Positions 2,525 through 46,501 of a stretch of DNA of 46,501 nucleotides are shown here, in pieces. The stretch comes from a virus. The notes under the pieces were generated by a model. That model made no database searches and had not been told where the DNA came from. It saw only the letters and a list, made by a program, of their open reading frames with translations. Each line of letters opens with the position of its first letter. The stretch's first letter is position 1. The translations under genes and the position numbers were made by a program. The stretch lies in the IMG/VR virus record IMGVR_UViG_3300042549_007962, positions 1 to 46,501 of that record; one strand, 5' to 3'.

Positions 2525-2534
2525 GGGACGGCTA

Positions 2535-7529: not shown

Positions 7530-7560
7530 TAACTCATCAATCAATGACGGAAGGATAGAC

Positions 7561-9432: not shown

Positions 9433-9468
9433 GCTAACTTAATGACAAACGACAAACAAAGGACGAAC

Positions 9469-17677: not shown

Positions 17678-17896
17678 ATGTCTACAGATCTATCAAAAGA
17701 AACCTACATAGTCACTACTCCTGCATGCGGAATGTGCGGTGAGCAGGGAGTTGTCGAAGTTCCAGCTATTGGATTCCTTGAGTGGAATTTCGGTAAGCTG
17801 ATTCAAGAGGCTTTCCCAGACATGGACATTGCAATTCGTGAACAAATGATTTCTGGCATACATCCTAAGTGCTGGTTAGAGATGACCGGAGGGTAG
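17678..17896 (+). CDS. Small zinc protein of the PDM..REQ..SG.HPKCW type
   Basis: This 72-residue protein has CGMCGE near residue 18, then GKLIQEAFPDMDIAIREQM and ISGIHPKCW. The pattern C-x2-C...FPDM...REQ-x3-SG-x-HP-x-CW recurs in small actinophage proteins. The two Cys pairs with the His may hold one zinc. It is the first gene of a three-gene operon with phosphatase and deacetylase, 2 bases before the phosphatase ATG. Function is unknown. Confidence 0.7.
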   Translation: MSTDLSKETYIVTTPACGMCGEQGVVEVPAIGFLEWNFGKLIQEAFPDMDIAIREQMISGIHPKCWLEMTGG

Positions 17897-17898
17897 TA

Positions 17899-25910: not shown

Positions 25911-27674
25911 GTGGCTGTATTTAAGCGTGATAATAATTCACGCCCAGGCGGTAACCGTGCACAGCGTAGAGCTGCGCCACGAACAACCGCGCCCCAGGCT
26001 CCTACGTCATTTAATATTGATCCAATGTCTAATCAAGCACAACCTGTTGCATACTCAACTCCGCGAGCAATGACTGCGGCAGCAACTCAAATCAAGCTTA
26101 ACGATAAAGGCGAAGTTGAATACTTCAAGCAGCGCCGCGCAGGAGGGTCTACCGACTGGCAAGGCGAAGCGTGGGAGTACTACGACGCTATCGGAGAAAT
26201 CAAGTATGCATTTAACTTGGTTGGATCTGTTGTTTCACGTATCCGTTTATATGCGGCTGCGGTTGACAATCCTTCAGAGTCTCCAGTAAATGTTAACAAC
26301 AGCAATGTTGTTGACGAGCGTTTAGCAGCAGCTGCAGAGCGCGCGCTTGCGCGCTTAGACTCCGCGTATGGCGGACAAGCTGGTCTCCTAAAGGACGCGG
26401 CTCTTAATCTTGTTGTGTCTGGCGAATGCTACCTTGTTCAGTTTCCAGCACGCGCAGGCAGCGGAACACAAGAATCTTGGGACATTAGATCTACAGACGA
26501 ATTACAGGTTGACGCACGTAATAACTATGTAGTTGTTCCACGCCGTGACTTAGCAAGTGGCGGACGCACCGGCATGAATGTTATTCAACTTCCAAAGACT
26601 GCGTTTGTTGGACGTATCTGGAGAGCTCACCCACGCTACTCCGAAGAAGCAGACTCTTCATTGCGCGGTCTCCTAGATCTTTGCGCAGAGCTACTTTTGC
26701 TCAACCGTACGTTCCGCGCGACTACTCGTTCACGCTTAAACGCAGGAGCTCTGTACTTACCAGACGGACTCAGTGTTGCTGGATCTCCTGACCCAGATTA
26801 CCCATATGATGATGAGAATGATCTCAACCCAGGGCTAACTGTTGAAGAGGCAGAGGATGAGTTTGAAGATCAACTCATCGACGCTATGACAACTCCTATT
26901 CGTGATGAGGATTCAGCATCAGCAGTAGTTCCACTTATTATTCGTGGACCTGCAGAGCTTGGCGACAAAATTAAGCAGTTTAAGTTTGAGCGCTCGTTTG
27001 ACCCAGCACTTGCACAACGCGCAGACCGCGTACTAGAGCGTATCCTCCAGGGACTTGACGTTCCTAAGGATATCGTTACAGGGCTTGCAAACGTTAAGTA
27101 CTCTAACGCCCTTCAAATTGACGAGTCCTTGTATAAGGCACACATTGAACCATTGATGCTTTTGATTGCTGACGCTCTTACAGTTGTTTACCTACGACCA
27201 GCGCTCATCGCTTCTGGCTTCACTGAAGAAGATGTAAAGAAGATTGTTGTTTGGTATGACCCTTCACAGGTTGCTACTCGTAACGACCGCGCGGCTGATG
27301 CTGATTCAGGCTTTGACAAGATGGCGATTTCTTACGAGACATGGCGTCATGCTCACGGCTTCTCAAATCAAGACGCTCCAGATGCAAAAGAAATTGCAAT
27401 CCGCATGATGATTGAAAAAGGAGCTATCTCTCCCGAGCTTACTCAGGCGATGATTGCAGCCCTTGCTCCAGAAGTAATGAAGAGTGTTCGTGATGCGCAG
27501 CAGGCAGATTCAGTAGCGCCAGTACCTCCTGAAGTACAACAGATTCTAGAGCAGCAAGGTGCACCAGCGCCAACACCAACAGAGGCACCAGCGCAGCCAG
27601 AAGCAATTCCACCTAGCGCTGCACCGGCAGATGACATTTCCAATCTTATTGACAAGGCAGTAGAAGGAGCGTAA
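25911..27674 (+). CDS. Portal protein
   Basis: This 587-residue protein has portal-type features. The N-terminal segment has WEYYDAIGEIKYAFNLVGSV near residue 88. The stem region contains DRVLERILQGLDVPKDIV near 375, and IDESLYKAHIEPLMLLIADA near 403 marks the wing/crown boundary. The C-terminal ATRNDRAADADSGFDK near 455 is also typical of actinophage portals. The last 60 residues are Pro/Ala-rich. Portals form the dodecameric vertex through which the terminase pumps DNA. GTG start behind GACGAGGAG. It lies next to the other head genes as expected. Confidence 0.85.
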   Translation: MAVFKRDNNSRPGGNRAQRRAAPRTTAPQAPTSFNIDPMSNQAQPVAYSTPRAMTAAATQIKLNDKGEVEYFKQRRAGGSTDWQGEAWEYYDAIGEIKYAFNLVGSVVSRIRLYAAAVDNPSESPVNVNNSNVVDERLAAAAERALARLDSAYGGQAGLLKDAALNLVVSGECYLVQFPARAGSGTQESWDIRSTDELQVDARNNYVVVPRRDLASGGRTGMNVIQLPKTAFVGRIWRAHPRYSEEADSSLRGLLDLCAELLLLNRTFRATTRSRLNAGALYLPDGLSVAGSPDPDYPYDDENDLNPGLTVEEAEDEFEDQLIDAMTTPIRDEDSASAVVPLIIRGPAELGDKIKQFKFERSFDPALAQRADRVLERILQGLDVPKDIVTGLANVKYSNALQIDESLYKAHIEPLMLLIADALTVVYLRPALIASGFTEEDVKKIVVWYDPSQVATRNDRAADADSGFDKMAISYETWRHAHGFSNQDAPDAKEIAIRMMIEKGAISPELTQAMIAALAPEVMKSVRDAQQADSVAPVPPEVQQILEQQGAPAPTPTEAPAQPEAIPPSAAPADDISNLIDKAVEGA

Positions 27675-27676
27675 GA

Positions 27677-29497
27677 ATGAATCACAACATGCGTGCAGAG
27701 AAGCCAGAGCTTGTAGAAGCTCTTGCTCGTCTTCTAGGTAACAACGTTGTTTTCTACACCAAGGCGCACGGACATCACTGGAATGTTACTGGCCGCGACT
27801 TCTCACAGTTCCACGACTTCTTTAGCGACATCTACGAAGACGCCTTTGCGCAGTTTGACCCTGTTGCAGAGAACATCCGCAAGATGGGTGCGCTCACTCC
27901 TTATCGTCTTTCAGACTTTGCAAACTTGTCTAGCATGTCTGACATGGAGGTTGGCTCAGACGCGATGCTCATGTGTCAGGACTTGCTAGAGGCAAACAAC
28001 ATTCTTATCGAGTCAATCAACGTAGCGTTTAAGATCGCATCAGATCTTGATGAACAAGGCATTGCAGATTACCTTGCGGGCCGAGATGATGAGCACAAGA
28101 AGCTACGCTGGAAGTTAACATCGTACCTTTCTCCAACACGAGCAGATAGCTTGGGAAAATCTGACGCTGTTCAACCTATAAGTGTAGACATGACTGATGT
28201 AGTTGTGCCTGCGGTTGAGCAGCTGATGGACGACGCAAATGGTTGCGCACTCTGCGGATATGGCGAGTGCGTGTGCCCGTCAAGCGATGGTGGAGTTTGT
28301 CTTTGTAATGAAGACTGCCCATGCCACCACTGCCATGTTGTTATGGGCGGGTATGAAGCGTTTCAAGCGCAGCAGCAAGAAGCGCTTACGGCAGCAGGAA
28401 TTATTGTTGCTGAAGAGCAGGACCTTGCAGCAGCTCTTCTAGAGATTGCTGAAAAGCATGGCAAGTTTAACGAGGACCGCACAGGAATCTGGGCAGGATA
28501 CACTCCTGCGGCTGAAAACGAGTACAAAGAAATTGGTGTTAAGTGCATCAATTGCGTTCTATACGAAGGTCCTGGCGTTTGCAAGATTATCGCACAGCCT
28601 ATTGAAGACGAAGGCAAGTGCCGCTTTGCAGTTATCCCTGACGGAGTTGTTAAGGTAGAGGACGACCAGATTACTGCAAGTGCTGTTAACTTTGACGAGC
28701 CATTTGATGAGCTGAGCGCTCACGAATACGACGCTTTAATTGCTGCTGGTAAGAGTCCTTGCTGGGACGGTTACAAGCAGGTCGGTATGAAGAAGGGCAA
28801 GAAGGGGAACATGGTTCCTAACTGTGTCCCTGTTGATGCAGCAGACGATTCAGAGTTTGCAGCTTCACGCCGCGCTCCTAAGAAAGACCGCATCTACGGC
28901 TCAAAGAAAAATAAGCCAGGATCTGCTGCAGGCTCAAAGAAAATTGTTTTCTCTGACAAGGTAGAAAACTCTCTTCGCAATAAGGTAGAAGCGCATAACG
29001 AAAAAGCAAAGCCTGGACGTAAGGCAACGCTTCCAATGCTGAAGGCAGTCTACCGCCGTGGCGCTGGAGCATTCTCGTCTAGCCACAGACCAGGTATGAC
29101 TCGTGACGGTTGGGCAATGGCGCGTGTTAACGCGTTCCTTAAGCTTCTTAAGAGTGGACGCCCAGCTAATCCAAATTACAAGCAGGACAATGATTTGCTC
29201 CCTAAGGCTCACCCTAAGTCATCTCGTGGAGAAGCCGCAGTTCTACAGCACGAACTTCTACAGGTTGCCCTTAAGTCTGCAGACGAGTACGGCTCACCAG
29301 AGCACGCAATTTTTTCTATGGCTGAATATTCAGGATTAGGATACGAAGTGATCCCAGCCCTACGAGGCGCCTGGCTACGTGGCGTACGTGACGGTGATGT
29401 ACCATTCTCACGAGCATATGAACTAGCAACAAAGCTGTACAGCAGTAAGGACGCAGACCTCCTGCCAAAAAAGAATAGAAAGGCAACAGGAGAATAA
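27677..29497 (+). CDS. Dps/ferritin-like domain fused to Cys-rich and capsid-region modules
   Basis: This protein has 606 residues. Residues about 1-160 are a complete Dps-like four-helix bundle: HGHHWNVTGRDFSQFH, then FFSDIYEDAF and FDPVAENIRKMGA. The His, His, Asp, Asp and Glu positions of the intersubunit ferroxidase site are kept. Residues about 195-225 are a dense Cys/His cluster (CALCGYGECVCP, CNEDCPCHHC). A second Cys group is near 293-315 (CINCVLYEGPGVC). Residues about 415-515 hold a lysine-rich helical module (GAGAFSSSHRPGMTRDGWAM, ARVNAFLKLL) seen in large-phage proteins. DLLPK motifs occur near 515 and 597. Dps proteins store iron and shield DNA from oxidants. Here the domain is tied to a probable virion protein, next to the portal. 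Confidence 0.8.
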   Translation: MNHNMRAEKPELVEALARLLGNNVVFYTKAHGHHWNVTGRDFSQFHDFFSDIYEDAFAQFDPVAENIRKMGALTPYRLSDFANLSSMSDMEVGSDAMLMCQDLLEANNILIESINVAFKIASDLDEQGIADYLAGRDDEHKKLRWKLTSYLSPTRADSLGKSDAVQPISVDMTDVVVPAVEQLMDDANGCALCGYGECVCPSSDGGVCLCNEDCPCHHCHVVMGGYEAFQAQQQEALTAAGIIVAEEQDLAAALLEIAEKHGKFNEDRTGIWAGYTPAAENEYKEIGVKCINCVLYEGPGVCKIIAQPIEDEGKCRFAVIPDGVVKVEDDQITASAVNFDEPFDELSAHEYDALIAAGKSPCWDGYKQVGMKKGKKGNMVPNCVPVDAADDSEFAASRRAPKKDRIYGSKKNKPGSAAGSKKIVFSDKVENSLRNKVEAHNEKAKPGRKATLPMLKAVYRRGAGAFSSSHRPGMTRDGWAMARVNAFLKLLKSGRPANPNYKQDNDLLPKAHPKSSRGEAAVLQHELLQVALKSADEYGSPEHAIFSMAEYSGLGYEVIPALRGAWLRGVRDGDVPFSRAYELATKLYSSKDADLLPKKNRKATGE

Positions 29498-29499: not shown

Positions 29500-32400
29500 A
29501 TGGACTCACCTATCAACCGCATGATTGACCGCAACTTTAATCGCAAGGTAGCGCAGTCGACCAAGGCAAAGGCTAAGCGCACAAAGGCGTTGAACGACCA
29601 AGTCCTTTCTCTTGTTCATGCTGCCAATGAGACTGCTCTACCAGAGCGTCACGTCACTCCTCGCGCTGCGCTTATTGTTATGGCTCGCGCTATGAAGGAG
29701 CTCGCGTCTCTTCCAGAAGAGTCTCGCAATCACGGTGTTCTCCGTGAAGTCACAAAGTTTATTAGTTTGAACCAAAAGACTCTTCTAGCGAGCGTTAGCA
29801 CAAAGCATGCAGACCTTCTTCCTAAGGGTCACCCACTTTCACCTCTCAACGCGTCATTAACAGACGAGGATCTACGTAAGAAGTACTCAGCGTGGATTGC
29901 AGCTGACCCTGCTATTGCAGATGACGCTCGCCCTCTTGTTGCTATGGCTCACTCACTTCCGCCAGAGTCTATCGAGCGTGAACACGCATTCCTGCGTCTC
30001 CGCACTTTGCAGGCGTCTGCAGTTCCTGCCTATTTTAAGATTGACGATGTAACTGCACTCGTTGCTGCGTTTAGCGCTGGCAACTCTTCTGCAGCTCGTA
30101 GAGCACGTGTAGCTCTACAGTGGCGTGACCGTTTTGGTCGATGGGTTGAAATGGGACGTGGTATTAACTTCCGATTCCGTTTGCCTGACGGCTCTATTCA
30201 AGTCGCACGCGGCAACTACGTTGGCGCTGGTAGCAACAGCATTGTAGAGCGCACAGCTACAGGAACGTCATTAACATCTGAGTTTGGCCTTATTGAAGTT
30301 TCAGGAGTTCCTGGGCTTGCGCCTGGGCTGTACCCAGTTGGTAGCAGCAATGCAGCAGTGTACCAAGCACGTATTCCAGGAATGAAAGCTCCAGAGGAAC
30401 CATCATTCAAAGACCAGTTTGATCAAGACATTCCTTCAGTTTCAGATCTATCTGCTTCTCGTAAGGACTTGCCAATCGGTTGGAAGAAGCAAGGCCCTTA
30501 CTATGTATCGGATGATAACTACGCAGTTATCCCTGGACCAACAGGTCGACCACAAGCGGTTACACGTCTCAGTGCAGACGGACGCCCATCAGGCACAGTT
30601 GGCAACGCGCGCGACTGGTCTGAGGTTAACGCACTGATTGAAAAAGATCAGCCAGAATTCGATAAAGAAATTGCACGCCTGGAAGAAGAAGACGGCCAGC
30701 TCCCTCTTGCAAGAATTCCTGGCGCCACTGCAGAAGATGTTATTGACGGTTCAGAACTTCTCAAGATGCAAGAGCAACGCGCGCAAGAGAACAAAGCATT
30801 TGACGAATCACGTGGCGCTCCTCGACCACTTGGTAATAAGGACCTTAACGGAAACGTAGTTCCTGAAGGTTGGACTCGTAATGCGGATGACGATACTCGG
30901 TACACTCGTGAAATGCCATTGCGCGATGGTGGAACGTACCCACTCTTAGCTCGTGCAGACGATGATGGCACTTACATTTTCGGGCACTCTAGCTCATGGA
31001 TGGCAGACGAAGGTAGCGGAGGAACCCGCAGATTCGCTTCTTGGGACGAGATTGAAAAAGAAGGTATTCCAGGATTTGTTGACTATCTCAACGATACATT
31101 TACAAAAGATAACCCTATTACGCTTGCTGAAAGCGCTCCTGCAGGGAAGCCTGTAGGTACTCCTGCATCTGAGCTTCGCCCTGGCGACAAGGTTAAGCAC
31201 AAGGGCGAGTGGAAGACTATTAAGTCTATCGATAAGCTCAACCTTGGAAGTAGACTTAACTTTGAAGACGGAACGTCTGACGATATTGGAATCAAGTCAG
31301 TACAAGCAATACGTAAGCCTGACGCGACTGGCGGCGCTCTTGTTGACAACAGAGACGGCACGTTTAGATACAAGGGCGTAACGTTTAAGAAGGTATTTGG
31401 CAAGTGGGTTTCTGCAAGAGCGCTAGACCCTGCAATTGGCAAGAACGACACCATCGAAGATGCAATGGCAAAAATTGACGCTCTTGACGCTGCTAAGGCA
31501 GAAAAGCCATCAGCTCCTTCAGCTCCTGCAGCTGAAAGACCACGATTCGGAGAAGGCTACGGAGAAGATACCCGTACAGGAAGAAAGTCTCCGCTTACTC
31601 CAGGAAAAACTGCTGGCGATCTAACTAAGATTGACAAGTCTACTCTAGACGCTCTTAGTAAGAGAATGCGTGAAGACAGCACAGGCGAGTACAACATGGA
31701 AGGTGTGACATTCGCGCCTGACAACAACGGAAACATTGTCATGTACCCAGACGCGTGGGAGCCTGGCGACAAGATTATTGGTCGCATTGAAGACGACGGC
31801 GGTATTGACTGGGAGTCAGACGCTCAATACGACAAGTACGCAGAAAAGGTAACAGAAGCTCTTCGCGGTATTGGTACTCCTGACGAGAACGCAGACAACC
31901 TTAAGACAGCAGACAGCATTCTTGACTTCCTTGATAAGCACATGGACGACAAGGGAACTACTGAAGCTGACGCCATGGGAATCTCTAACGTTCAAGACTT
32001 AGTCAAAAAAGCTAAGAAGTACTTAGAGGAAGGTAATACTAAAGAAGCAATCAGCTCATTCCGTGACGCGTACGATGTAATTGTAGGAAATGATTCTCCA
32101 GGAGACGGAGTCTTCCGTAACGGAACAAACTCAGCTGAAGCTGAAGAACTACTTGATAATCTTATTTCTTCTCTTAGAGGAGAATCTGACTACAGTGTAA
32201 GCTTTGAAGCTCTTCGTGATGAAGAGACTCTTATTGAAGCTGGTCTCGACCCTGACGGTGAGTACGAGGATTCAGAAATTCTTGATGCGTGGTTAAAGGC
32301 TAAAGGTCTTGACGGACGCGTCAAAGTTAAGTCACTTACAGAAGGATACGGCGGACCAGAGTCTGTTCTTGAAATTCCAGAAGAAGCTAAGGCTGACTTT

Positions 32401-35400
32401 GTTAAGGGATACGGTAACTTTGAGCCAGGCGTTACATTTGACGATCTTGTAGAAGACGGCATGATTAGTAAAGCACCAGGGCAAGGTGCTTCAGGCGCGC
32501 GATTTGCAGAGGGCAACAGCGGCAACGTCATCATTACTAACTCTATTAAGAAAGATCCTAATGGCGCATTTTCAGAAGTGTTTATGGGCGATTACATGGA
32601 GCCATTTAACACAGACGACCCATGGCTTGACGAAGTTGTAAAGGCCGCGAACAAACTTGGTATCCACGTTGACTTTGCACCAAGCCAGTCTGGAGCGTAC
32701 CTCAGCGATGAAGGCGTATTCAGATTTACTCTATCTGGTCCCGAGCTAACGCCAGAGCAAGCTAAAGAATTTATGGGCGATGACCCAGATGACGCTGGAG
32801 TTTTTGGAGCAGCGTTTTCTGGTATTAACGACCAAGAAGGATTTGAAGACACTTCCTGGCAGAATCTTTATAACGCACTTACAGGCGGCCCAACAACTTG
32901 GGACAAAGTACAACTTGATCTAGGTGATTACGAAAACAGCCCAGAGTTTATTAAGCAGGCCAACGAGATTACAAAAGACTGGCCTACTATGAGCTACGCC
33001 ACCTACATAAATGATAAAGATCCTGAATTTGTAAAACATAAGTATATGCCTTTGCCAGAAGGAAGTAAGCTTATTGCTACTGGCTTAAATGGCGAAGATG
33101 GCAGTCAACTTCTCGTTAAACTTCCAGATGGAAACTACATCCTTGCAAACGATGTATTAGACATCAGTGATGAAGACATGAAAAACAATGTTGGAATTCC
33201 AGCGTTTGAGCAGATCTTCCCTGCATCAGCAGAAGAGCCAGGCGGCGGATATGGAGAGAATAACTTGTCTTGGGAAGACATGACGCTAGAGCGTCTCACA
33301 AGCGGAGACCCTTATAGTGGATTTGACCGCCTCGATGAGTATGGATACTTTAAACGATTTGGTATCCCAAAGAACACAGGCAGCTCCGGCCCAGGCGAAG
33401 GCTCAGCGGACATCGACAAGCCATTTGTTTTTGATGAAGAAGGCTACGACCCAACAACGTTTACTTTCAGTAAAAGAGAAAGACTGGTTGCAAGCACCGC
33501 ATACTCGTGGGATGTCAGTGTTGCTCTTCCTGGAGGAGAAACAAATGATTACATCTACGGAATACGTGTAGATGACGACGGCACAGTTGAGTACATTACT
33601 AGTGATGGTATGTACGGTGATGCTAGTAGTATTCGTGGAGAGATTTTCCCCGAAGAAGTAGTAGAGTACATGGAAAATTACATAAAGAGTAAATTCCCTG
33701 ACGATAATCTTCCGCCTTCAGATGGCGGCTCCGGCCCAGGCGAACCACCATCAGGTCCAACTACACCTTCAGGAGATTACGGCTCAGACTTTACATCAAT
33801 GGTGATTGATGGTGCTGAGTCTCAGTACTTCATGGACCGCGAGCTTGAAGAGATGCTTGATGAAGAAGATGTGCTTAAGACTGGACTTACCTTTGCAGAC
33901 CTTATGTGGGATTCAGCTAATGACCGCTTTGATCTACAGGATCAATTTGATGGTAACCGTCCTATAGATCTTAACAAGAGTGAGTTTATTGAAGCTGCAG
34001 TAGCAGCTTTCAATAAGGACGTTAATTCTAATCTCGAGTCTGCTTTTGAAGAGCGTCTTGACTCAGACCCAGAATACGATACAAACTCATTTGATAGCGA
34101 TAAGTTTAAGGCTACGGCAGAAAGGCAGTACAGAGACCGTCTCGAATCTTTGTTTGAGTATGACGATGAAGAAGGATCAGGCGAGCCACCAACTCCTCCA
34201 TCAGGCCCAGGTAGCAACCCTGATTTTACAAATCGCTTTAAAGAAGTAAAAGAACTAGCGGAGTCTGGCAGTCCTACTCCTCAAGAGTTTTTCAACGCGC
34301 TCTTTAAAGACGCAAAGTACCGTCTGCCAACTTCAAAAGAACTTAAAGACTACGGCATGCCAGAAGACTCAAAAGTGTTCTACGTTGACGAGCAGGATAC
34401 TTTTGTGCAACACTCCGATGGTACCTGGCACAACTACGACCTAGATGCCCCAGGTGAGTCAGCGGGTGATAAGGGTACATACGACTTCTTTATAGATAAC
34501 TTTGTCGGCGCAACTGATGATTTGTCTATGGTCTTCTATCGAGGCGCGTTTATCGACAGAGATCTTCAACTAGCAGTAGAGAAACAACGAGATGGCGAAG
34601 GTCCAGGCGAGCCACCAACTCCACCTTCAGGCGGTGGCGACAATACGCCAGGCGGCGGTTTTACTGACTATGTTATTGATCTTGCAGAAGACGATGCAGA
34701 CCTTGATAAAGATTTAGAAGAAAAATTTGATGGCGATGCAGAAGAAGCTGGCATTGAACTTATGGACCAGATCTATGAAGATGCTTCAAGACGCTATGAG
34801 CTGTCGCAAGACATTGCAGACAACAAGCCAGCAGGCATGTCTGATGATGAGTTTGTGCGTGATGCTGTTGCTAAGATGCGCGAGCAACTTAAAGCCATTG
34901 TTGATTCAGCTATTGAAGGGTATCAAAGGAGGTACCCAGAACTCCGCGACGTGGAAGACGGCGAGGTTGTGATTCAGAGGTCTGGCGTAGTTGATTTTGA
35001 CAAGAAGGCGTTTATCGACGCAGGCGCAAAGCGTTTTGAAGAGCTCCTTCGTGAAGAGCTAGATAACATGGGTGATGATGACGAAGGCCCAGACGAACCA
35101 CCTTCTCCAGGTGGGGGTACACCCCCAAAAGTACCAAGCCCTAGCACACCAGGATCTCCTGCTTTATTCGGAGACTTCGATAAGCCTGCTGGGGCATTCC
35201 AACTTCGCACTACAGAGTACGAGCCGGAAGGTCGCATTGATGAAGAGTCAGCAGACTTTACTGATGACCCTCGTCGTCTTGCAACAAAGTTTACACTTGA
35301 CGAACTTGTAACTGCGCTTACAGAAGCGCTTATTGGTCGCCCTAGTGATGACGCCATGCAAGACATCCTAGATGCAAACGTAGGAGACGATGATGATCTC

Positions 35401-38400
35401 CCAGATCTTGATGACTTAGAAAGCGTAGCTAATTCACCAGCTCGTAGAGCTGGAGAAGTTAGTGGTACAGGAACTGGCGCTCTTGAGTTTAGTGCAGGTG
35501 AAGAGTACGTACAAGCCGAGGCGCTGTATAACGCAGTGTACGAAGCTGGTGGAGACCCTAACCGCGTTATCGCTAACGCGTATGACGCAGCTAACGGTAA
35601 TCGTAACAATGCACGTAAACTACTCGATGCGCAAGGCGGCGTGTCATCTCCTGAAGACGCTCAGCTCATTGAAGATATGACTGACGAGATTCGTCAGATC
35701 AAGGACGCAACTCCTGACGACGATATCTCTGTAGCTCAAAAGAGAAGCAAGCCAGAAAAGAAGACTACAGGCTCTCTCATCGAGAACGCGCCTGTTGATT
35801 ACGATAACCCAGACTTCTTTGACATGGATACATACGCGTATATCCCATCTGTTCCAGATATTGATGAAAGTGGCTACACTGATAATCCTGAGATTATCTC
35901 TACAGATTACGAGACAGCTGATCTTATCGAACAGATGATTGAGGCAATTACTGACGGATCTGGTGTGGTTCTTCTAGACTTTGGCGGAGACGCAGGAGCA
36001 GCTGAAGTACCTGTTGAAGCTGTCCGTGATGCACTGCAGCTTCTAAACGTCAACACAAATGAAATTCTATTTAATCTTCGCGATGAGTCTAACGACATGG
36101 AAGACAACGAGAAGCCAGAAGCTCCTACCCTTGCACGTGAAGATATCCGCTGGGACGCTGAAAAGAATCTTTACACAGACGTTAATGGAAAAGTTCTTGA
36201 TGGCGATACTGTAGACGCTGCAGGGCTCGATTCATCTCTTGTTGACGCGCCAGCTCCAGATATTAAAGTTCTCCCCTCTACAACAGAGCAAGACCAAGCA
36301 CAAGCACCAGCGACTCCAGAAGCGCCGCAAGGTTCAGTCGAGTTCGCCCCGTTCTCAGACGCATTAGCAAATCTTGATGAAGAAGATCCTTCAACTTCAC
36401 CAGAGACTGTTCTTATGCTTGATGATGCTGCTAACGCGATAGTTGATATGTTTAGCAACGGAATGCCGTCAGATGCTAGTTTTGTTGCGTATAACGCTAA
36501 CAACGGAATAATACTTTTTAAGACTGGCGCAACAGATCTTGAGCAAGAAAGAACAATTTCAATGCACCCTAACGGTGCTGCTCTCGGTCTTGAGTCTAAC
36601 ACAGATTGGTTCTTAAGTCCTCAAGGAGAGACCTACGGCTGGAGAAAAGTCCCTGACGACGCAGTGCAAGCAATTCGCCAGGAGAACGCACGTCGTTACC
36701 CAGGATTCTCTGTAGCTGAAAAAATAGCTGCTACAGAGCCAGCCCCTGCTCCTGCTTTCATGTATCCTGGCCCTCGTGAAGCTGGATACTCAGTAAACAA
36801 CACAACGCTAGCGTCTGACGGATCAGTTGTTGGCGCTGGTTCTATTGTTATTGCCAATCGTGATAGCAAGCGCGGAACAGTTGTAAGTATCCAGAATGAC
36901 CCAGAGTACGCACGTATTCGTTTTGACGACGGCAAGATTGCTGTTCGCTCAGCTAATCAAATCAAGGCAGTGTCAAATCCTGACGGTTCTCTTGCGCTAG
37001 CTCCTTCTGGCTCACTTGCTCCGTCTCCGGCAGTCCCTTCTACTGACGTAGAAGCTCGTCTAGAAGCTCCAATCCTAAAAGCGCCTAACATTGCTCGCTC
37101 TGGCGCCTCATGGGGCATCAACGATACTAGTGAAATTCCTGAAGCAATTCAGCCTCTTGTGCAGCAAGGCGTTCAGCAGTCTGACTTCTCCGCATGGGGA
37201 AGCCGAGATGCCGAGATTGCTAAGGCTGCTACCACTAGAGCATCACTTATTTCTCTCGTAGATGCTGCAGGTCAGATCATCGTTGCACGTGAAAACGGAG
37301 ATATGCAAGGATCCGTTGACGCGACAAAGCAGACACGTGCGCTTATTGAAGACATTTATGGAGCGCGCTCTGGCGTTTCATTTGGAGTTGATGGATATCG
37401 TATTAGCCCTGAAACTGCTAGCTCGTACACAAGAAATACCATTGAGGAGATACAGTCTGGTAATGCAGAGTTTAGATTTGCTATCAATTTTGAAGTTCAA
37501 AATAAAAATGGCGGAAGAGTCGGAGAAGGCACTCGCACTGTCTACGTAACAGTCAAGACTGGCGAAGCTGGCAATAAGACGTACCAAACAAGTGTAAAGA
37601 ATGAAATACTTAAAATAAGAGACGAGTATCAGAAAAAAGGATTTGCAAGCGCGTATAACCGCTACATGGAGAACTGGTACATTGCTAATGGCATTGACAA
37701 GGTAAAGGTTTACGCAGCTGGCGGTGGATCATGGGACGGCGCGTTTGTCTGGGCGCTTAACGGTTTTGACTGGGATGCTTCAAGCGGTTATGGCGATCCG
37801 CAAGAGATGGTGGGGGCTCTCAGGAGACGAGCAAGAAGCGATGAAGAGAAAGCTATTGCTGCAAAGCTAGCTAGTAAGGTAGACGCAGCTGACGGAGATT
37901 TCTCTAAGATGCCGACTCCTCTTGAAGTTGCTTTAGTTGGTTGGTACCCAGGGGCAGAAAGCTGGCTAGGAAAAGAAGTTCTTATACAGAGATCATGGCA
38001 CGGTGTTAAGCACTTAAAGCCTGATGCTAGAGAGCAGAAGCAAGCTGCTAACTACAATCAGATTAAGAATGCTGAGCGTCGTATACGTTCTGGGCAAAAC
38101 AAAGCTAACATGAGTGGTTATGCTCTTACACAGATCATGGATAACGATTTCCAAGATAAGAACCCAGGACTAAGCCCTCATATAGAAGCTGTTCGTGATG
38201 CACTAAGAAACAATCGTCCACTTGGATTCTTGTCTCCTGCAGCTAAGGCAGCTCTAAACACGTATGTATCAGATCAATTACGCGACAAGAGCAGCTTAGT
38301 GCCTATGGACGATTTGTTCCGTCTACGCAACGCGCTAGACGCAGAGTACCGAGCTGACTACGACTTTGCAGATCCTTTCGGTGGAGTAGGAGACGCACTA

Positions 38401-39294
38401 GCTGACTTCTCACTTGACGATTACCTTAACAACTCAGATGCGCTTAAGGCAGTTGGCTTTGAGTCTCTTGCACTATCTGAAGGACAGAACAACATATTTA
38501 GAGTTACTCATAAGGCTAGCGGTCAAGTTTTCTTTGTTAAAGAAGAACATCTTTCTCGTGACTGGGACGGAGAAAGAGGGCTAACACGCGAGGTAGAAGC
38601 TAGCACGCTAATGAACGCTCTTGGAATGCATGGAATTTCAGACGTTCGCGCTTCTCGTGCGAATGAAGACATTTTCATTATGTCTCAATCTGGGGCTACC
38701 TTGCCACTTACCTCCGAACCTGTCAATGCTGAAGAGATGTTCTATAACGGCATCACCGAGCCAGTAAACGGCATTAACATGCGAGCTGTTAATGGCACAT
38801 TTGTAGATGCTCTAAGTAACCCAGAAGACATTCTTAGCATGTCAATTATAGATATGCTTGGAGACTCTGCAGACCGTCATGACGCTAACTGGATGGTAGC
38901 ATTTGACAGCACCACTAACCGATTAAGAATGTTCCCAATTGATCACGGTCTTAATCAAATTGAGACTGACTCTGACGTAATAACTCCGTTCTTAGCGCAG
39001 AACTGGCCATCAGCAGGAGGTGTCTATCAAGTAGCGATTCCTAGACTTATTGATCTTGCAGGAGAAGCACGTACTAAGGAAATGTTCTTAAATCAGGTTG
39101 ATAAGCTTATCACTAATCTTGATAATCCTTTGTTTCAACCTAAGGGTCAAGAGCTTGCTGCTCTCATCGAGAAGTGGGGCAGCTACGATGCGTTTAAGGA
39201 TGCGATGAAAGAACGTCTTACACGAATTGTAACACCAGGCACAGATGAGAATGACGCGCTTGGAAAATCAATGAAAAGAAACTACTGGAGGTAA
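29500..39294 (+). CDS. Giant multidomain (polyvalent-type) virion-region protein with acetyltransferase-like and kinase-like domains
   Basis: This protein has 3264 residues. Modules seen in order: a helical N-terminus with DLLPKGHP near 108 and RDRFGRWVEMG near 208; a small Hint/SH3-like strand module near 555-605 (LRPGDKVKHKGEWKTIKSID); and long acidic regions. Between about 1290 and 1880 are acidic helical modules split by GPGEPP/PPSGG linkers, two of them diverged copies (DFTSMVIDGAE and GFTDYVIDLAE). A KOW-like module lies near 2445-2490. A GNAT-like segment lies near 2700-2757 (YQKKGFASAYNRYMENWYIA). The end, about 2970-3210, is kinase-like: VFFVKEEH (Lys), TREVEAS (Glu), DRHDANWMV (catalytic loop) and FPIDHG (DFG-like). 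It may be injected with DNA to modify host proteins. Confidence 0.78.
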   Translation: MDSPINRMIDRNFNRKVAQSTKAKAKRTKALNDQVLSLVHAANETALPERHVTPRAALIVMARAMKELASLPEESRNHGVLREVTKFISLNQKTLLASVSTKHADLLPKGHPLSPLNASLTDEDLRKKYSAWIAADPAIADDARPLVAMAHSLPPESIEREHAFLRLRTLQASAVPAYFKIDDVTALVAAFSAGNSSAARRARVALQWRDRFGRWVEMGRGINFRFRLPDGSIQVARGNYVGAGSNSIVERTATGTSLTSEFGLIEVSGVPGLAPGLYPVGSSNAAVYQARIPGMKAPEEPSFKDQFDQDIPSVSDLSASRKDLPIGWKKQGPYYVSDDNYAVIPGPTGRPQAVTRLSADGRPSGTVGNARDWSEVNALIEKDQPEFDKEIARLEEEDGQLPLARIPGATAEDVIDGSELLKMQEQRAQENKAFDESRGAPRPLGNKDLNGNVVPEGWTRNADDDTRYTREMPLRDGGTYPLLARADDDGTYIFGHSSSWMADEGSGGTRRFASWDEIEKEGIPGFVDYLNDTFTKDNPITLAESAPAGKPVGTPASELRPGDKVKHKGEWKTIKSIDKLNLGSRLNFEDGTSDDIGIKSVQAIRKPDATGGALVDNRDGTFRYKGVTFKKVFGKWVSARALDPAIGKNDTIEDAMAKIDALDAAKAEKPSAPSAPAAERPRFGEGYGEDTRTGRKSPLTPGKTAGDLTKIDKSTLDALSKRMREDSTGEYNMEGVTFAPDNNGNIVMYPDAWEPGDKIIGRIEDDGGIDWESDAQYDKYAEKVTEALRGIGTPDENADNLKTADSILDFLDKHMDDKGTTEADAMGISNVQDLVKKAKKYLEEGNTKEAISSFRDAYDVIVGNDSPGDGVFRNGTNSAEAEELLDNLISSLRGESDYSVSFEALRDEETLIEAGLDPDGEYEDSEILDAWLKAKGLDGRVKVKSLTEGYGGPESVLEIPEEAKADFVKGYGNFEPGVTFDDLVEDGMISKAPGQGASGARFAEGNSGNVIITNSIKKDPNGAFSEVFMGDYMEPFNTDDPWLDEVVKAANKLGIHVDFAPSQSGAYLSDEGVFRFTLSGPELTPEQAKEFMGDDPDDAGVFGAAFSGINDQEGFEDTSWQNLYNALTGGPTTWDKVQLDLGDYENSPEFIKQANEITKDWPTMSYATYINDKDPEFVKHKYMPLPEGSKLIATGLNGEDGSQLLVKLPDGNYILANDVLDISDEDMKNNVGIPAFEQIFPASAEEPGGGYGENNLSWEDMTLERLTSGDPYSGFDRLDEYGYFKRFGIPKNTGSSGPGEGSADIDKPFVFDEEGYDPTTFTFSKRERLVASTAYSWDVSVALPGGETNDYIYGIRVDDDGTVEYITSDGMYGDASSIRGEIFPEEVVEYMENYIKSKFPDDNLPPSDGGSGPGEPPSGPTTPSGDYGSDFTSMVIDGAESQYFMDRELEEMLDEEDVLKTGLTFADLMWDSANDRFDLQDQFDGNRPIDLNKSEFIEAAVAAFNKDVNSNLESAFEERLDSDPEYDTNSFDSDKFKATAERQYRDRLESLFEYDDEEGSGEPPTPPSGPGSNPDFTNRFKEVKELAESGSPTPQEFFNALFKDAKYRLPTSKELKDYGMPEDSKVFYVDEQDTFVQHSDGTWHNYDLDAPGESAGDKGTYDFFIDNFVGATDDLSMVFYRGAFIDRDLQLAVEKQRDGEGPGEPPTPPSGGGDNTPGGGFTDYVIDLAEDDADLDKDLEEKFDGDAEEAGIELMDQIYEDASRRYELSQDIADNKPAGMSDDEFVRDAVAKMREQLKAIVDSAIEGYQRRYPELRDVEDGEVVIQRSGVVDFDKKAFIDAGAKRFEELLREELDNMGDDDEGPDEPPSPGGGTPPKVPSPSTPGSPALFGDFDKPAGAFQLRTTEYEPEGRIDEESADFTDDPRRLATKFTLDELVTALTEALIGRPSDDAMQDILDANVGDDDDLPDLDDLESVANSPARRAGEVSGTGTGALEFSAGEEYVQAEALYNAVYEAGGDPNRVIANAYDAANGNRNNARKLLDAQGGVSSPEDAQLIEDMTDEIRQIKDATPDDDISVAQKRSKPEKKTTGSLIENAPVDYDNPDFFDMDTYAYIPSVPDIDESGYTDNPEIISTDYETADLIEQMIEAITDGSGVVLLDFGGDAGAAEVPVEAVRDALQLLNVNTNEILFNLRDESNDMEDNEKPEAPTLAREDIRWDAEKNLYTDVNGKVLDGDTVDAAGLDSSLVDAPAPDIKVLPSTTEQDQAQAPATPEAPQGSVEFAPFSDALANLDEEDPSTSPETVLMLDDAANAIVDMFSNGMPSDASFVAYNANNGIILFKTGATDLEQERTISMHPNGAALGLESNTDWFLSPQGETYGWRKVPDDAVQAIRQENARRYPGFSVAEKIAATEPAPAPAFMYPGPREAGYSVNNTTLASDGSVVGAGSIVIANRDSKRGTVVSIQNDPEYARIRFDDGKIAVRSANQIKAVSNPDGSLALAPSGSLAPSPAVPSTDVEARLEAPILKAPNIARSGASWGINDTSEIPEAIQPLVQQGVQQSDFSAWGSRDAEIAKAATTRASLISLVDAAGQIIVARENGDMQGSVDATKQTRALIEDIYGARSGVSFGVDGYRISPETASSYTRNTIEEIQSGNAEFRFAINFEVQNKNGGRVGEGTRTVYVTVKTGEAGNKTYQTSVKNEILKIRDEYQKKGFASAYNRYMENWYIANGIDKVKVYAAGGGSWDGAFVWALNGFDWDASSGYGDPQEMVGALRRRARSDEEKAIAAKLASKVDAADGDFSKMPTPLEVALVGWYPGAESWLGKEVLIQRSWHGVKHLKPDAREQKQAANYNQIKNAERRIRSGQNKANMSGYALTQIMDNDFQDKNPGLSPHIEAVRDALRNNRPLGFLSPAAKAALNTYVSDQLRDKSSLVPMDDLFRLRNALDAEYRADYDFADPFGGVGDALADFSLDDYLNNSDALKAVGFESLALSEGQNNIFRVTHKASGQVFFVKEEHLSRDWDGERGLTREVEASTLMNALGMHGISDVRASRANEDIFIMSQSGATLPLTSEPVNAEEMFYNGITEPVNGINMRAVNGTFVDALSNPEDILSMSIIDMLGDSADRHDANWMVAFDSTTNRLRMFPIDHGLNQIETDSDVITPFLAQNWPSAGGVYQVAIPRLIDLAGEARTKEMFLNQVDKLITNLDNPLFQPKGQELAALIEKWGSYDAFKDAMKERLTRIVTPGTDENDALGKSMKRNYWR
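33381..35150 (+). repeat. Pro-Gly linker repeats and diverged acidic modules in the giant gene
   Basis: Variants of GCTCCGGCCCAGGCGA occur at 33383 and 33728, and of GGCGAGCCACCAACTCC at 34170 and 34609, encoding SGPGE and GEPPTPP linkers. A last one (DEPPSPGG) is near 35091. They separate acidic modules, two of which align by eye (about 33778-34180 and 34660-35090), indicating internal duplication. Confidence 0.7.
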
Positions 39295-39300: not shown

Positions 39301-40293
39301 ATGATAAAAGTAATCCGCGCGTACGAAATTGGCTCAGACGTCCATGTTTTTTCTATTGTTGCGTCTGATAAAGGGTTTAAGTACGTATTTGACAATGACC
39401 GCAAAATTTTTAACGCTAAGAAGCGTGAAAAAATGCTTATGGAGAAGACTAAGAACGCTAAGTCTGAGTACGGCGTTGACGAGTATCTGTCATCTGCCAC
39501 TGTTGGCTTAACCATGTCTTACCGTTTTGGACCAGTAAGAGAAGAATCGTCAGAAAAGATTGCGCTTAAAGAAGAGCAGCTCTCTGTTATGAAGTCTCTT
39601 AATGAGCTAGACAAGAGTCCAATAAATCAGGATCTCGTTAACAAGCAGGAAGATCTTAATCAAGTTCTTAATGACTACCCAGACCTTTATGACCAACTTG
39701 AAGGCACAGAAGAAAACCCTAACATGAAGATCACTGCTGACGGTATGTTTGAGTTAGTGATGGCAGCTCTGGGCGGTATTGACCCAGAGGGACCTAACGC
39801 GTGGATCCTCGATATGCACGATGGCAAAGAAATGCCAGAGGGATTTGTAAGAGAGATTGTTTTTGGTTCTCCTGAGCCAATGACTGCTGCGGCTGATGCC
39901 TCATGCCCACCAGCTACTCAAGACATTTTACTTAATATTAAAAACCGCCAGAACGCGATTGACAACGTTGGCTACGGCCCGTTAAATCCAGCAGAGCCTA
40001 ACGATGAGTTCTGGCAAGGCAAGTCAGACCGTTGGAAGGTCACTAAGGACGATGCTAAGAAGAGCTTGTGTGGTAACTGCGCGGCGTTTATTCAAACCTC
40101 TAAGATGCAAGGCTGCATTGCTCAAGGGCTGCAGCAAGGTGATGAAAATGCTGCAGATTCCTATGACGTGGTTGCCGCGGGCGATTTAGGATATTGCGAG
40201 GCGTTAGACTTTAAGTGTGCAGCTTCGCGTACATGTGACGCGTGGATTGCAGGCGGACCAGTCACTGACAAGACAGGAAAAGACTCAGTATGA
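39301..40293 (+). CDS. Hypothetical virion-region protein with C-terminal Cys cluster
   Basis: This protein has 330 residues. The first 60 residues form a mixed alpha/beta unit, then a helical stretch (EEQLSVMKSLNELDKSPINQ). From about 200 a compact domain begins (CPPATQDILLNIKNRQNAI, YGPLNPAEPNDEFW). It ends with seven cysteines in CGNC, QGCIAQG, GYCEALDFKC and RTCDAW, a likely metal or Fe-S site resembling HiPIP-like folds in layout. Start ATG 39301 follows GGAGGTAAGACGAA. ATGA overlap with the protease fusion gene. It is a probable head or injected protein. Confidence 0.65.
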   Translation: MIKVIRAYEIGSDVHVFSIVASDKGFKYVFDNDRKIFNAKKREKMLMEKTKNAKSEYGVDEYLSSATVGLTMSYRFGPVREESSEKIALKEEQLSVMKSLNELDKSPINQDLVNKQEDLNQVLNDYPDLYDQLEGTEENPNMKITADGMFELVMAALGGIDPEGPNAWILDMHDGKEMPEGFVREIVFGSPEPMTAAADASCPPATQDILLNIKNRQNAIDNVGYGPLNPAEPNDEFWQGKSDRWKVTKDDAKKSLCGNCAAFIQTSKMQGCIAQGLQQGDENAADSYDVVAAGDLGYCEALDFKCAASRTCDAWIAGGPVTDKTGKDSV

Positions 40294-43200
40294 AACATGT
40301 AGGACAGAGTGGCTCACGCGCTTTATTCAGTGATGATGTAAACGCAGTCATCATTGACCTAGATGAAAACCTTGTAGTCGAGACTGGAACTTTTTCTTCA
40401 CTGACAGCTTCTGCAAAATGGAAGCCAGCGTCTCGTCGTAATGTATCTTCTGCGTTAGAACTAGCCCAGGCAACACTAACGTCTTTAGATGTAAGTATCG
40501 TTGCAGCAGGCAGTAGACTCTACACTATACCTAAAGCAGCGCAGGCTGAGGCAAAAAGAGGCCTTGAATGGCGTAAAGAACACAATCGTGGTGGAACTCC
40601 CGTAGGAGTCAACAGTGCACGCACCCTTGCGAAAGGCGGACAGATTGGTATCGAGAAAGTTCGTCATATTGCGAAATATTTTCCTCGTCATGAGATTGAT
40701 AAGAAGGCGAAAGGCTATGAGCGAGGCGAGGACGGTTTCCCGTCTCGCGGGCGTATCGCGTGGGCTCTCTGGGGTGGCGACTCCGCGTGGCGTTGGGCGC
40801 GAGCAATCGTCGAGCGCGAGAACAAAAAAGCTTTAAGAGCTGACGGCTACGCTGATATGGGCTACGTAGCAGATCCTTTTGACTTCGTAGCTGAAAGTAA
40901 TTACGATGCAGATCTTGACGCATTTTCCTCTAAAAATGGAGCAGTTGAATTTCTTGCCCGTTTGCGTATGGATGGATCAGGTATTGACCGCCTATACAAA
41001 ATTGATGAAGATTTACTTATTTCAGTGTGGGACTCTGGGCACTGGCACATGCTGGACGGAGTCAACCCTGACCTAGCAAGTTACGACTTAGCACTAGACG
41101 ACGAGGATGATTCAACAGAGAAGGCTCATATTGAAATTGACCCTGAGTCTGCGTTGTTCCTTTCAGCTTCATTCCAAGAAGACGCGTATCGCTCAGTATC
41201 TTTATTTGACATTGACTACGACGAAGCTTCAATGATTCTTGCAGCTGCAGGTGAGCTTGACTTAAAATTTATAGATTCACTAGTTGCAGTTGGCACAGCT
41301 CCTACCACAGACGGCGATGGCCAATACACACCTGAAGAACGCTCTCAGAACGTTGCAAAGCAAGTCCGTGATAAGACAGGCAAGTTTTCTAAGCAAGGCT
41401 CTCGTGTAATGATTGGCGGAGACTCTTCAAAGGGTGTTGGTAATATCGTTGCGATTAACCCAGCTAAGCAGACAGTTAGCGTTAAGCTAGAGGGAAGCGG
41501 AAACACTGTAGAAGTTCCAGCTACTACAACTGAGCCTGCGCCAAACAAGCCTTCGTACTCTGCAGGCAAAGGGCAAACCCCTGAGCAGCAGCCACTTGAC
41601 ACTTCAGGAATTCTTGCTGAGCCACGCACGCCTATCGACCGTCCATACGCCCAGCTGCCTGGAACTCTTCCTCGCATGAACGCGAGCGACATTGCCAAGG
41701 TGCAGAACGACTTTCCAGGATTTGTTAAAGACCAGCGTGATGCTTTTAAAGCAGGCAAGCCTGTTATTAAGCCTGGCAGCAAGCTTATCACTGGACCAGA
41801 CCAAACACAAAAGTACGAGAAGCCAGATTTCATTAAAGAGCTTGAAGAGCTTACTGGCGCAAAGATGATTACTGACCCGTACAAGCACCCCTTACTAAAA
41901 GACTTTCTTAACAAGAAGGTTAAGGGATCTGACGGTAAGTATTACTACCCAAACAAAATTCACTATCAGCCTGCAGTCCCTAAGGTAGCTTCTGCTGCTA
42001 AGGCTGGCGAGTCTAAAGAGATGACTCCTGAGACTTCAGACGTTCAACCAGTATTTTTTGCTGTTGTTTCAGAAGATGACCCAGGCGCAGTTCTTGAGCT
42101 TGTCTCATTAGTGCCTGCAAGCTCAACCAGCACAGACCCTATGACGTACACACGCAAAGATAAGAAGTGGGTACGCAACGAGGCAATTCTTGTTGACATG
42201 AACTCACCTACACCTCCACCTGTTGTGCCTCTTGACGCAGGTGCGTTGAAGTCTGTTGTTCAGCAGGTAGATGGCGCTGTGCCAGTCGCAGCTAGCATTA
42301 CTCCAGACAAAGAATTCATTACAGTTCTATGGGGTGCAGGCGGAAACGTCATGCTTCTTACTGCAGCAGGCGGACCTGACCGTAATCGCGGTAACGCTGA
42401 GAACCTTCGTCGCTACTGGACAGTAGGCAAGGGCGGTCTTGTAAAGATCCGTTGGAATACTCCAGGAGACTGGACACGTTGCTACCGTAACCTAAAGAAG
42501 TACATGGGACCACGCGCTAAGGGTTACTGCTCACTACGCCACAAGGAAATGACTGGCATGTGGCCTGGCGATAAGAATAACCCTGGCATGAAGAAAGGAG
42601 TATTCGCTATGGACGAAATCCTTTCAAGCGAACAAGTAATCAACGCTGCAGCTCTCTCGGCACGAGCTAAAGACGCGCATAACCGCGTGCTTAAGGCTGG
42701 CGGAGAAATCGCGTACGAGGATGGCGGTAAGTTCAGCATTCCTCTTGTTATCCCAGAAGACTTAGAGTCTGGCGACGGTCGTAAATTCAAGAAGGGCGCG
42801 ATTGAAATTCGTGAACTTCCACTCCCGCTTATGTGGCAGATCAAATCTGCTGAAGGTCACAACGGCTCAGTTGTTGTTGGACGTATTGACGTTATGGAAC
42901 GTGTTGAAAATGGTATTGGAAATGCTACAGGAGTGTTTGACCAAGGTGAATATGGTCAAGAGGCTGAGCGTCTAGTGCGCAATGGATTTATCCGTGGAGT
43001 ATCCGCGGATTTAGACCAGTTCGAGGCAAATGAAGAAAGAGCTGATCTATCGGAAGAAGAAGACAGTGGTAAGATTGGAACAGACAAGCTCGTGATTACT
43101 CACGCACGAGTCATGGCTGTCACTCTCGTGCCAAAACCGGCATTTCAAGAGTGCCAAATCTACCTCGTTGAAGACGAGAAACAGGAGGATATAGTGATTC

Positions 43201-45030: not shown

Positions 45031-46501
45031 GTGGACCAAATCAAACAACAGCTTGATGCGTTGTCTGAGCTTAGCGACGAGCAAGTCGTTGAACTTCAAG
45101 CAACAATCGTAAGCGAATTCGAGACGGTTGAAAAAGAAGATCCTACTCCGCAGACAGTAGATGCAATGACATCTCTAGCTGACATGCTTGACACCGTTCG
45201 TGGTGAAGTAACTCGTCGTGAGGCCCAAGCTCAAGAGCTTGCAACTCGCGCCACAGAAGCTGCTATGCGCGTTAAAGGTACAGAAGAAGAGATGCCTGTA
45301 GAAGGCGAAACAGAAACCCCAGCTATGGAAGACGAAGCTGAAAAGCCTAAGTCTGAACCAGCTGAAGAAAAGGAAGAAGATAAGCCTATGACAGAAGCAT
45401 CAACTGCTGTGGATACAGCATCAGAACTTTCAACAGAAACATCAGAAGCTCCAGTAGCTGAGGCAGTTGCAGAAGCAACTCCTGCTGCAGAGCTTTCAAC
45501 AGAAGAGGCTCCTGCTGCTGAAGCACCAGAAGCACCAGAAGCACCAGCAGAAGCACCAGTTGTTGAGGCAGTCGCCGCATCAGCTGAAGAAGTAACAACA
45601 ACAGAATCAACAACCGAAGCACCTATCGTGCAGGAAGATCAGGAGGCACCAGTGACCGCCGCCGTAAATGAACCGGATGCAGTAATTGAAGCACCGGCAG
45701 ATCGCCGTCCAGTAGCGCAGGCTTCAGCAGCTCCAGTGGCAATCACTGCGGGCGCTGATATCCCTGGCTATACAGCTGGCAGCGAAATGTCAGACATGAA
45801 AGTCGTTGCAGAAGCAATGTCAAAGCGTTTGCACGGCCTACGCCGCGTAAACGGTGGAGATGGCGAACAGCACATTGTCGCGTCTATCACAACATCTTAT
45901 GATGAGGCACGTACTCTTACACAAGATGCAGAATCAAACTGGAACAAGATCCAGGCAGTTGCATCACCTGAGGCGATTGTTGCTTCTGGTGGACATTCAA
46001 CACCGTTCGCTGTTAAGTACGATATCTTTGGTATCGGCACAACAGTACGTCCAGTGCGTGATTGCTTGCCTCGTTTTCAGGCAGACCGCGGTGGTATCCG
46101 TTTCATCACACCACCTGTTCTATCTGACTACGACAACGCAGTTGGTGTTTGGACAAACGTTGTTGACACAAGCCCAGGAACTGACGTAAAGGCTTCACTT
46201 ACAGTCACAGCAGCAACAGAAAACACAGTTGCTACAGACGCTGTAACATTGCAGCTCCAGTTTGGTAACCTCATGACACGCGCTTATCCTGAATTGATCG
46301 CTCGCCACAACGAGCTTGGTCTTATTCAGCACGCTCGTGAAGCTGAGAACCAGATTCTTACACGTTTAACTGCTCTTTCAACAGCAGTTACATCAACATC
46401 AATCATTGGTGTTGGCCGTGACTTCCTAGTGCAGATCGGCCGCGCATCAGCTGCGTACCGTTCACGTCATCGCCTACCAGCTGACTTCCCACTTCGCGTA
46501 A
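45031..46501 (+). CDS. Major capsid protein with N-terminal acidic scaffold-like domain (partial)
   Basis: The frame opens at GTG behind GGAGGAGGG and runs off the window after 490 codons. The first 205 residues are acidic and low-complexity (runs of EAPEAPEAPAEAP), as in a delta/scaffold domain that the protease removes. From about 210 the chain becomes capsid-like: helices around SDMKVVAEAMSKRL, the KYDIFGIGTTVRPVRDCLPR segment near 332, and the long helix FGNLMTRAYPELIARHNELG near 411. An in-frame GTG at 45652, six bases after AGGAGG, sits right at the scaffold/core border and could start a core-only form. It lies directly after the protease gene, the usual order. Confidence 0.82.
   Translation, partial: MDQIKQQLDALSELSDEQVVELQATIVSEFETVEKEDPTPQTVDAMTSLADMLDTVRGEVTRREAQAQELATRATEAAMRVKGTEEEMPVEGETETPAMEDEAEKPKSEPAEEKEEDKPMTEASTAVDTASELSTETSEAPVAEAVAEATPAAELSTEEAPAAEAPEAPEAPAEAPVVEAVAASAEEVTTTESTTEAPIVQEDQEAPVTAAVNEPDAVIEAPADRRPVAQASAAPVAITAGADIPGYTAGSEMSDMKVVAEAMSKRLHGLRRVNGGDGEQHIVASITTSYDEARTLTQDAESNWNKIQAVASPEAIVASGGHSTPFAVKYDIFGIGTTVRPVRDCLPRFQADRGGIRFITPPVLSDYDNAVGVWTNVVDTSPGTDVKASLTVTAATENTVATDAVTLQLQFGNLMTRAYPELIARHNELGLIQHAREAENQILTRLTALSTAVTSTSIIGVGRDFLVQIGRASAAYRSRHRLPADFPLRV
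45641..45654 (+). promoter_or_regulatory. Internal ribosome binding site and GTG at the scaffold/capsid border
   Basis: AGGAGG at 45641-45646, five bases, then in-frame GTG at 45652. The acidic GAG/GAx codons make a chance match possible. Confidence 0.4.

Follow-up and report, generated by a model that had tools for sequence, protein, structure and literature searches.

A cysteine-free giant protein with predicted kinase and GNAT-like domains encoded among the head genes of a virus fragment from IMG/VR

Introduction

Polyvalent proteins of phages and conjugative elements are encoded beside virion genes, and kinases and GNATs are among the domains listed for them in the account of Iyer et al. 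2017 (PMC5512222). Enzymatic C-terminal domains are also placed on head proteins in MuF-fusion effectors and toxins, as described in PMC3482391 and PMC5512222. For the virion RNA polymerase of phage N4 (gp50), packaging and ejection are proven (PMC12633501).

The giant protein described here is likewise very large, joins unrelated enzymatic domains and lies beside virion genes, as do the polyvalent proteins in the sections of PMC5512222 considered. However, the polyvalent-protein kinase clade presented there has lost its C-lobe, whereas the kinase model of the giant keeps the C-terminal helical part, and neither linker-bearing cassettes nor cysteine exclusion are among the features described in those sections. 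Like the N4 enzyme with its ~3,500 aa, the giant is a single chain devoid of cysteine, but the two differ in host, tail type and sequence, ejection of the giant is inferred, and neither Pfam nor PHROGs gave a match to a T7-like RNA polymerase domain of the N4 type. A MuF protein of another phage locus shares its kinase type with the giant, which itself has no MuF domain match. With PI3/PI4-kinase-type and CtkA-like kinases the giant shares the DRHxxN loop, IDHG and the kinase fold, but it stays below the Pfam cut-off and the TM-scores are low (up to ~0.47). The giants of phages DSL-LC01 (WJZ48510) and Pumpernickel (gp82) correspond in operon position, N-domain and near-zero cysteine content; however, the former lacks this GNAT and kinase and the latter lacks the GNAT. 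An earlier description of the pairing of kinase and GNAT, of a swappable middle or of the lack of cysteine was not found. Multi-enzyme chains were already known; what is new is this family, with its organisation in cassettes, its exclusion of cysteine and the possible erasers encoded nearby.

Materials and methods

The window, i.e. the whole stretch of DNA analysed, is a 46.5-kb virus fragment from IMG/VR. Relatives were gathered from IMG/VR in scans that used the kinase region and the GNAT region of the giant as queries, and several of them are cut by contig ends. The phosphatase and deacetylase genes were sought in 12 IMG/VR records, two of which, judged from coordinates, end before the region in question. 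The coordinates of all features are given in Table 1.

Table 1. Features of the window, with residue numbers referring to the giant protein
Feature	Position	Strand	Evidence
Dual-specificity-type phosphatase, hypothetical eraser	17869..18411	+	PF00782, E 1.4e-9; conserved in relatives
HDAC-type deacetylase, hypothetical eraser	18365..19330	+	PF00850, E 5.5e-53; conserved in relatives
Portal protein	25911..27674	+	phrog_776, E 7e-110
Ferritin-like protein with DUF5824	27677..29497	+	PF00210, E 5e-16; PF19141, E 9e-7
Giant ORF, cysteine-free multidomain protein, 3264 aa	29500..39294	+	Open frame, 26 distinct relatives with both C-terminal domains, synteny, no Cys
Conserved N-terminal module, residues 1-~540	29500..31119	+	blastp against relatives; DSL-LC01 N-terminus 33% identical
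N-domain, residues 195-331, RDRFGRWVEMG motif	30082..30492	+	HMM search, DSL-LC01 and Pumpernickel giants, E 1e-16 and 1e-25
Variable cassette region, acidic, residues ~541-1888	31120..35163	+	blastp pattern and relatives' sequences
Cassette module copy 1, residues 1460-1549	33877..34146	+	Matches, like copy 2, one kind of module in L026, L027 and L017
Stretch with three GPGEPPTPPSG-type linker copies	34165..35118	+	42-nt repeats at 34165, 34591, 35077
Cassette module copy 2, residues 1723-1857	34666..35070	+	blastp against relatives
Conserved inner block, residues 1889-2203	35164..36108	+	Comparison of relatives; part shared with DSL-LC01
Conserved small domain, residues ~2418-2500, possibly Tudor/SH3-like (weak)	36751..36999	+	Conservation; one relative matches Tudor_3 (E 0.0099)
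GNAT-like region, residues 2560-2820; QKKGFA loop ~2711-2716	37177..37959	+	Conserved in 28 sequences, model, Foldseek, Jera/VanLee profile match
C-terminal kinase region (predicted), residues 2950-3264	38347..39291	+	Invariant residues, AlphaFold2, Foldseek, Pfam
K3014 of VFFVK, candidate ATP-binding lysine	38539..38541	+	27/27
E3031 of REVEA, candidate helix-C glutamate	38590..38592	+	27/27
DRHDAN, putative catalytic loop, residues 3125-3130	38872..38889	+	D, R, H, N 27/27
D3148 of IDHG, candidate metal-binding aspartate	38941..38943	+	27/27
Cys-rich 330-aa ORF, conserved neighbour	39301..40293	+	Cys count, synteny
1534-aa head protein with capsid-protease-type region	40290..44894	+	phrog_859, phrog_18402
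Major capsid protein, cut by window end	45031..46500	+	phrog_777, E 2.6e-43

Results and discussion

Gene, operon and relatives

The giant protein is encoded from an ATG start codon in one unbroken frame, which is immediately preceded by the Shine-Dalgarno site AGGAG and separated from the neighbouring genes by 2 nt and 6 nt. It is a real gene, given the Shine-Dalgarno site, the tight head-gene operon and the 26 distinct relatives in IMG/VR whose gene occupies the same position. The operon order is portal, ferritin-like protein, giant, Cys-rich ORF, capsid-protease protein and major capsid protein, and in all relatives whose locus reaches them the portal and ferritin-like genes lie upstream and the protease and capsid genes downstream of the giant. 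The portal (59-90%) and the protease (49-89%) are well conserved among the relatives, versus 29-75% for the kinase region of the giant.

Both C-terminal domains occur in unchanged order in the 26 further distinct proteins (27 including the window), and the relatives with an intact start have lengths of 1729 to 2927 aa. A carrier of the whole protein was not found in the cultured-phage collection. By tblastn, the N-terminus and one inner block matched the Actinomycetia phage DSL-LC01, whose genome is metagenome-assembled (PMC10611076), a shorter N-terminal stretch matched large Microbacterium phages, and the GNAT region matched phages Jera and VanLee. The host is probably an aquatic actinobacterium, its actinobacterial nature being judged from DSL-LC01 and the Microbacterium phages.

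The ferritin/Dps-like protein between portal and giant contains many cysteines and seems to be fused, in some relatives, to a region resembling the Cys-rich ORF. A DSL-LC01 gene in a position similar to that of the Cys-rich ORF is annotated as high potential iron-sulfur protein.

Modular anatomy of the giant protein

Comparison with the relatives by blastp split the chain into a conserved part (residues 1-~540), a variable part (~541-1888) and a second conserved part (1889-3264). The N-domain (residues 195-331) was found by HMM search in the DSL-LC01 giant, the Pumpernickel giant and a second portal-adjacent DSL-LC01 protein, a distribution which suggests a role in packaging.

The modules of the cassette region were gained, lost, duplicated and reordered among the relatives: the middle is almost missing in several of them (~1730-1910 aa) and expanded in others, duplications are present in L017 and L027, and the order differs between the window and L017. 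The linker GPGEPPTPPSG and its variants recur in this region, and the three window copies constitute a repeat at the DNA level. The linker core EPP[ST] occurs just once in other long ORFs of these loci. We infer that cassettes are probably exchanged by recombination at the linker repeats.

A helix-turn-helix cassette resembling sigma-70 region 4, which was not seen in the window protein, occurs in six of the relatives, where its place within the giant differs (residues L014:570, L017:552, L026:778, L027:829, L035:1077 and L042:633). In the DSL-LC01 giant, a stretch that appeared kinase-like by eye follows a stretch resembling an ADP-ribosyltransferase, without database support; the latter assignment (residues 1515-1664, L002:18534-18983) was made by eye and was rejected after PDB sequences and Pfam had given no support. 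BrxC helical and AvrPtoB matches were below threshold and were disregarded.

The predicted C-terminal kinase

The motifs VFFVK, REVEA, DRHDANW and IDHG, on which the first-pass annotation had based its proposal of an intact kinase-like fold at the C-terminus, are all present with the spacing it gave, and the proposal itself was supported by invariant residues and a confident model. K3014, E3031, D3125, R3126, H3127, N3130 and D3148 showed no variation, and the motifs are not due to chance, because these residues are invariant in 27 distinct sequences whose kinase regions are 29-75% identical to that of the window. Domain-by-domain structure prediction, which had been proposed as a check, was favourable for the kinase, with a pLDDT of 87.7 and a pTM of 0.87 for the AlphaFold2 model (27 sequences), including a helical part after the IDHG strand predicted with high confidence.

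In Foldseek searches with this model, the best matches by E-value were methylthioribose kinases (2.6e-4), while the highest TM-score among the listed folds was reached by H. pylori CtkA (at most 0.44 when normalised by query length and 0.47 by target length); matches to CotH and to many protein kinases were also returned. The Pfam family PI3_PI4_kinase (PF00454) was matched by 9/9 members tested (best E 5.5e-5), with the window kinase at 20.5 bits against a curated cut-off of 27.1, and the PF00454 hallmarks, i.e. the DRHxxN loop and the D of IDHG, are invariant in the 27 sequences. These data support a complete predicted kinase fold that resembles PI3/PI4-kinase-type and CtkA-like atypical kinases. 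The initial designation as HipA/PI-kinase-like has to be divided: its PI-kinase part is retained on the basis of the weak Pfam and the fold matches, whereas HipA identity was rejected, as neither Pfam nor NCBIfam gave a HipA match.

The same kinase type terminates other phage proteins, namely the MuF protein of L010, a 467-aa protein of L039 with a PF00454 score above the cut-off (33.6), a 3067-aa protein of L038 and Pumpernickel gp82, and these kinases were joined by profile comparison (97.7%, E 1.6e-12). In a viral fold library the best matches were proteins of uncultured Caudovirales, one of which is already named a PI3/4-kinase-domain protein. Scans of bacterial genomes with the kinase revealed no clear host relative and one short match in an Armatimonadetes MAG. 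Matches of the kinase profile to superoxide dismutase were dismissed as a 30-residue chance alignment outside the catalytic part. The MuF-domain protein (L010:6323-10603) additionally contains a Rho_N/SAP-type domain.

The GNAT-like domain

A GNAT-like domain located before the kinase had also been proposed, and its motif KGFASAYNRYMENWY indeed starts close to residue 2713, some 300 residues ahead of the kinase lysine, and is conserved as well as the kinase residues in the alignment of the relatives. The QKKGFA of the window can be compared with the acyl-CoA loop (Q/R)xxGx(G/A), its G and F being conserved among the relatives. The model of the region (28 sequences) was of moderate quality, with a pLDDT of 77 and poor parts in the second half, and its top Foldseek matches were acetyltransferases (prob ~0.99, E 1.5e-3 to 1e-2, low TM), the best of which include aminoglycoside and glucosamine-phosphate acetyltransferases. 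Moreover, profile alignment linked the region to the C-terminal region of the Jera capsid maturation protease and to VanLee gp130, annotated as acetyltransferase (98.7%, E 2.4e-16). The Pfam GNAT models did not match the window protein. Residues 2560-2820 are thus assigned to the GNAT fold with moderate confidence as a likely member, the model, fold search and profile match speaking for the proposal, and the missing Pfam match and low TM against it.

Cysteine content

The coding frame of the giant contains no Cys codon, while 57 and 179 TGY triplets occur in the two alternative frames of this stretch. In total, 0/3264 residues of the window protein and 2/51,157 residues of the 26 relatives are cysteines, compared with 2/3289 in the DSL-LC01 giant, 0/2235 in Pumpernickel gp82 and a mean of ~0.9% in neighbouring ORFs. 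Ejected proteins of N4 (vRNAP 0/3500, gp51 0/644, gp52 0/150) and of T7 (gp15 0/747, gp16 0/1318, gp14 1/196) have a similar composition, but P1 DarB is a counterexample with 9 Cys in 2255 residues, and in related phages cysteine is likewise missing from several proteins of the capsid, tape measure and tail. Due to this counterexample and these cysteine-free structural proteins, which weaken the absence of cysteine as a specific sign of ejection, the exclusion was taken by analogy to support a virion protein and ejection only indirectly. A stated cysteine rule for ejected proteins was not found in the literature searched. That cysteine is all but missing from a family that evolves quickly is a simple sequence signature, which can be tested as a marker of proteins that pass through the tail unfolded.

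Proposed role and alternative explanations

We consider the giant to be a virion-packaged and ejected polyvalent effector, with a probability of about 0.68. It would be expressed late along with the head genes and enter the prohead close to the portal by means of its conserved N-terminal module. At infection it would pass unfolded through portal and tail, aided by the lack of cysteine, and refold in the actinobacterial cytoplasm, where the C-terminal kinase would phosphorylate and the GNAT-like domain acetylate host proteins, favouring take-over. From phage to phage the middle cassettes are gained, lost and duplicated. This reading is favoured by the head-operon position, which is kept wherever readable, by the variable cassettes amid well conserved head genes, and by the occurrence of the kinase type at the end of a MuF head protein and of such a GNAT at the end of the Jera capsid maturation protease. 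By context and architecture, membership among the polyvalent proteins, as the first-pass annotation had suggested, is well supported: at least two unrelated enzymatic domains are joined in one chain, one of them being the GNAT of moderate confidence, and virion genes flank it in the window and the relatives. The kinase, however, is unlike the polyvalent clade without C-lobe, and a zincin-like metallopeptidase, a common polyvalent companion, was not found by Pfam or PHROGs in the 27 members, which may be explained by sensitivity. If delivered, the protein would be a phage effector bringing phosphorylation and acetylation to an actinobacterial host at the moment of entry, and its conserved chassis with exchangeable cassettes would be a phage counterpart of polymorphic toxins.

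The place between portal and protease and the low cysteine content common to structural proteins of related phages would also suit an undelivered protein of head assembly or of an internal core, with kinase and GNAT acting during morphogenesis in the producing cell, possibly on phage or host proteins and e.g. in control of the protease or of capsid maturation. This is unlikely, since the giant varies greatly in size and sequence while the adjoining assembly genes are conserved, which is unusual for an assembly factor, and the kinase and GNAT domains are found on unrelated head-protein scaffolds. A further alternative, which we regard as quite improbable, is that the protein is delivered but that the substrates of its kinase and GNAT folds are not proteins but small molecules, nucleotides or lipids, or that these folds are non-catalytic. 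Methylthioribose kinases as best matches by E-value, the Pfam hint at a lipid-kinase type and the aminoglycoside and glucosamine-phosphate acetyltransferases among the GNAT matches point in this direction; CtkA as the closest listed fold by TM-score argues against it, with the limitation that fold alone does not decide the substrate, and the invariance of all catalytic residues of the kinase speaks against a non-catalytic role. Large size and lack of cysteine are also properties of tail tape measure proteins, but the giant is encoded before the capsid gene, its lengths span a wide range among the relatives, and DSL-LC01 and Pumpernickel each possess a separate tape measure gene in addition to the syntenic giant, so that this identity was rejected as extremely improbable.

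Phosphatase and deacetylase genes upstream of the head operon

The genes for the phosphatase and the deacetylase overlap and lie just upstream of the terminase. Both were present in 10/12 IMG/VR records tested, i.e. in 10/10 of those reaching that region. The CxxGxxRS motif of the phosphatase is intact in all copies checked, as is the DxDAHHGDG motif of the deacetylase in the copies checked; the GFCxFND form of the latter is missing in one distant copy, another copy is cut by the locus end, and for some contigs the deacetylase match was reported with an internal stop codon.

It is conceivable, though doubtful, that these enzymes are part of a writer/eraser system, in which the virion would deliver the chain of kinase and acetyltransferase and the phosphatase and deacetylase of the same genome would later undo the marks; that the marks are set on host or newly made phage proteins is a similarly tentative part of this idea. 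All positives belong to one clade, and shared descent alone may therefore account for the co-occurrence. Outside the clade the pairing was not supported in the genomes examined: neither enzyme was found in four complete genomes, those of DSL-LC01, which has no writer, of Pumpernickel, which has the kinase alone, and of Jera and VanLee, which have the GNAT alone. Phage Magritte possesses the deacetylase and neither writer, and was not among the phosphatase matches. With phosphatase and deacetylase nearby, a temporal on/off scheme becomes testable.

Additional proteins are encoded in the upstream part of the window. A proteasome-subunit-like protein (17049-17615; PF00227, E 2e-6) adjoins the phosphatase and deacetylase and is also present in DSL-LC01 and, weakly, in Pumpernickel. 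At 6472-9384 an AAA ATPase (PF07728) is followed by a weak CoxE-like VWA match, resembling a MoxR/VWA-type pair, and the protein encoded at 9442-10389 is a protease of the subtilase family (PF00082, E 2e-11) that, as judged by eye, probably has a signal peptide.
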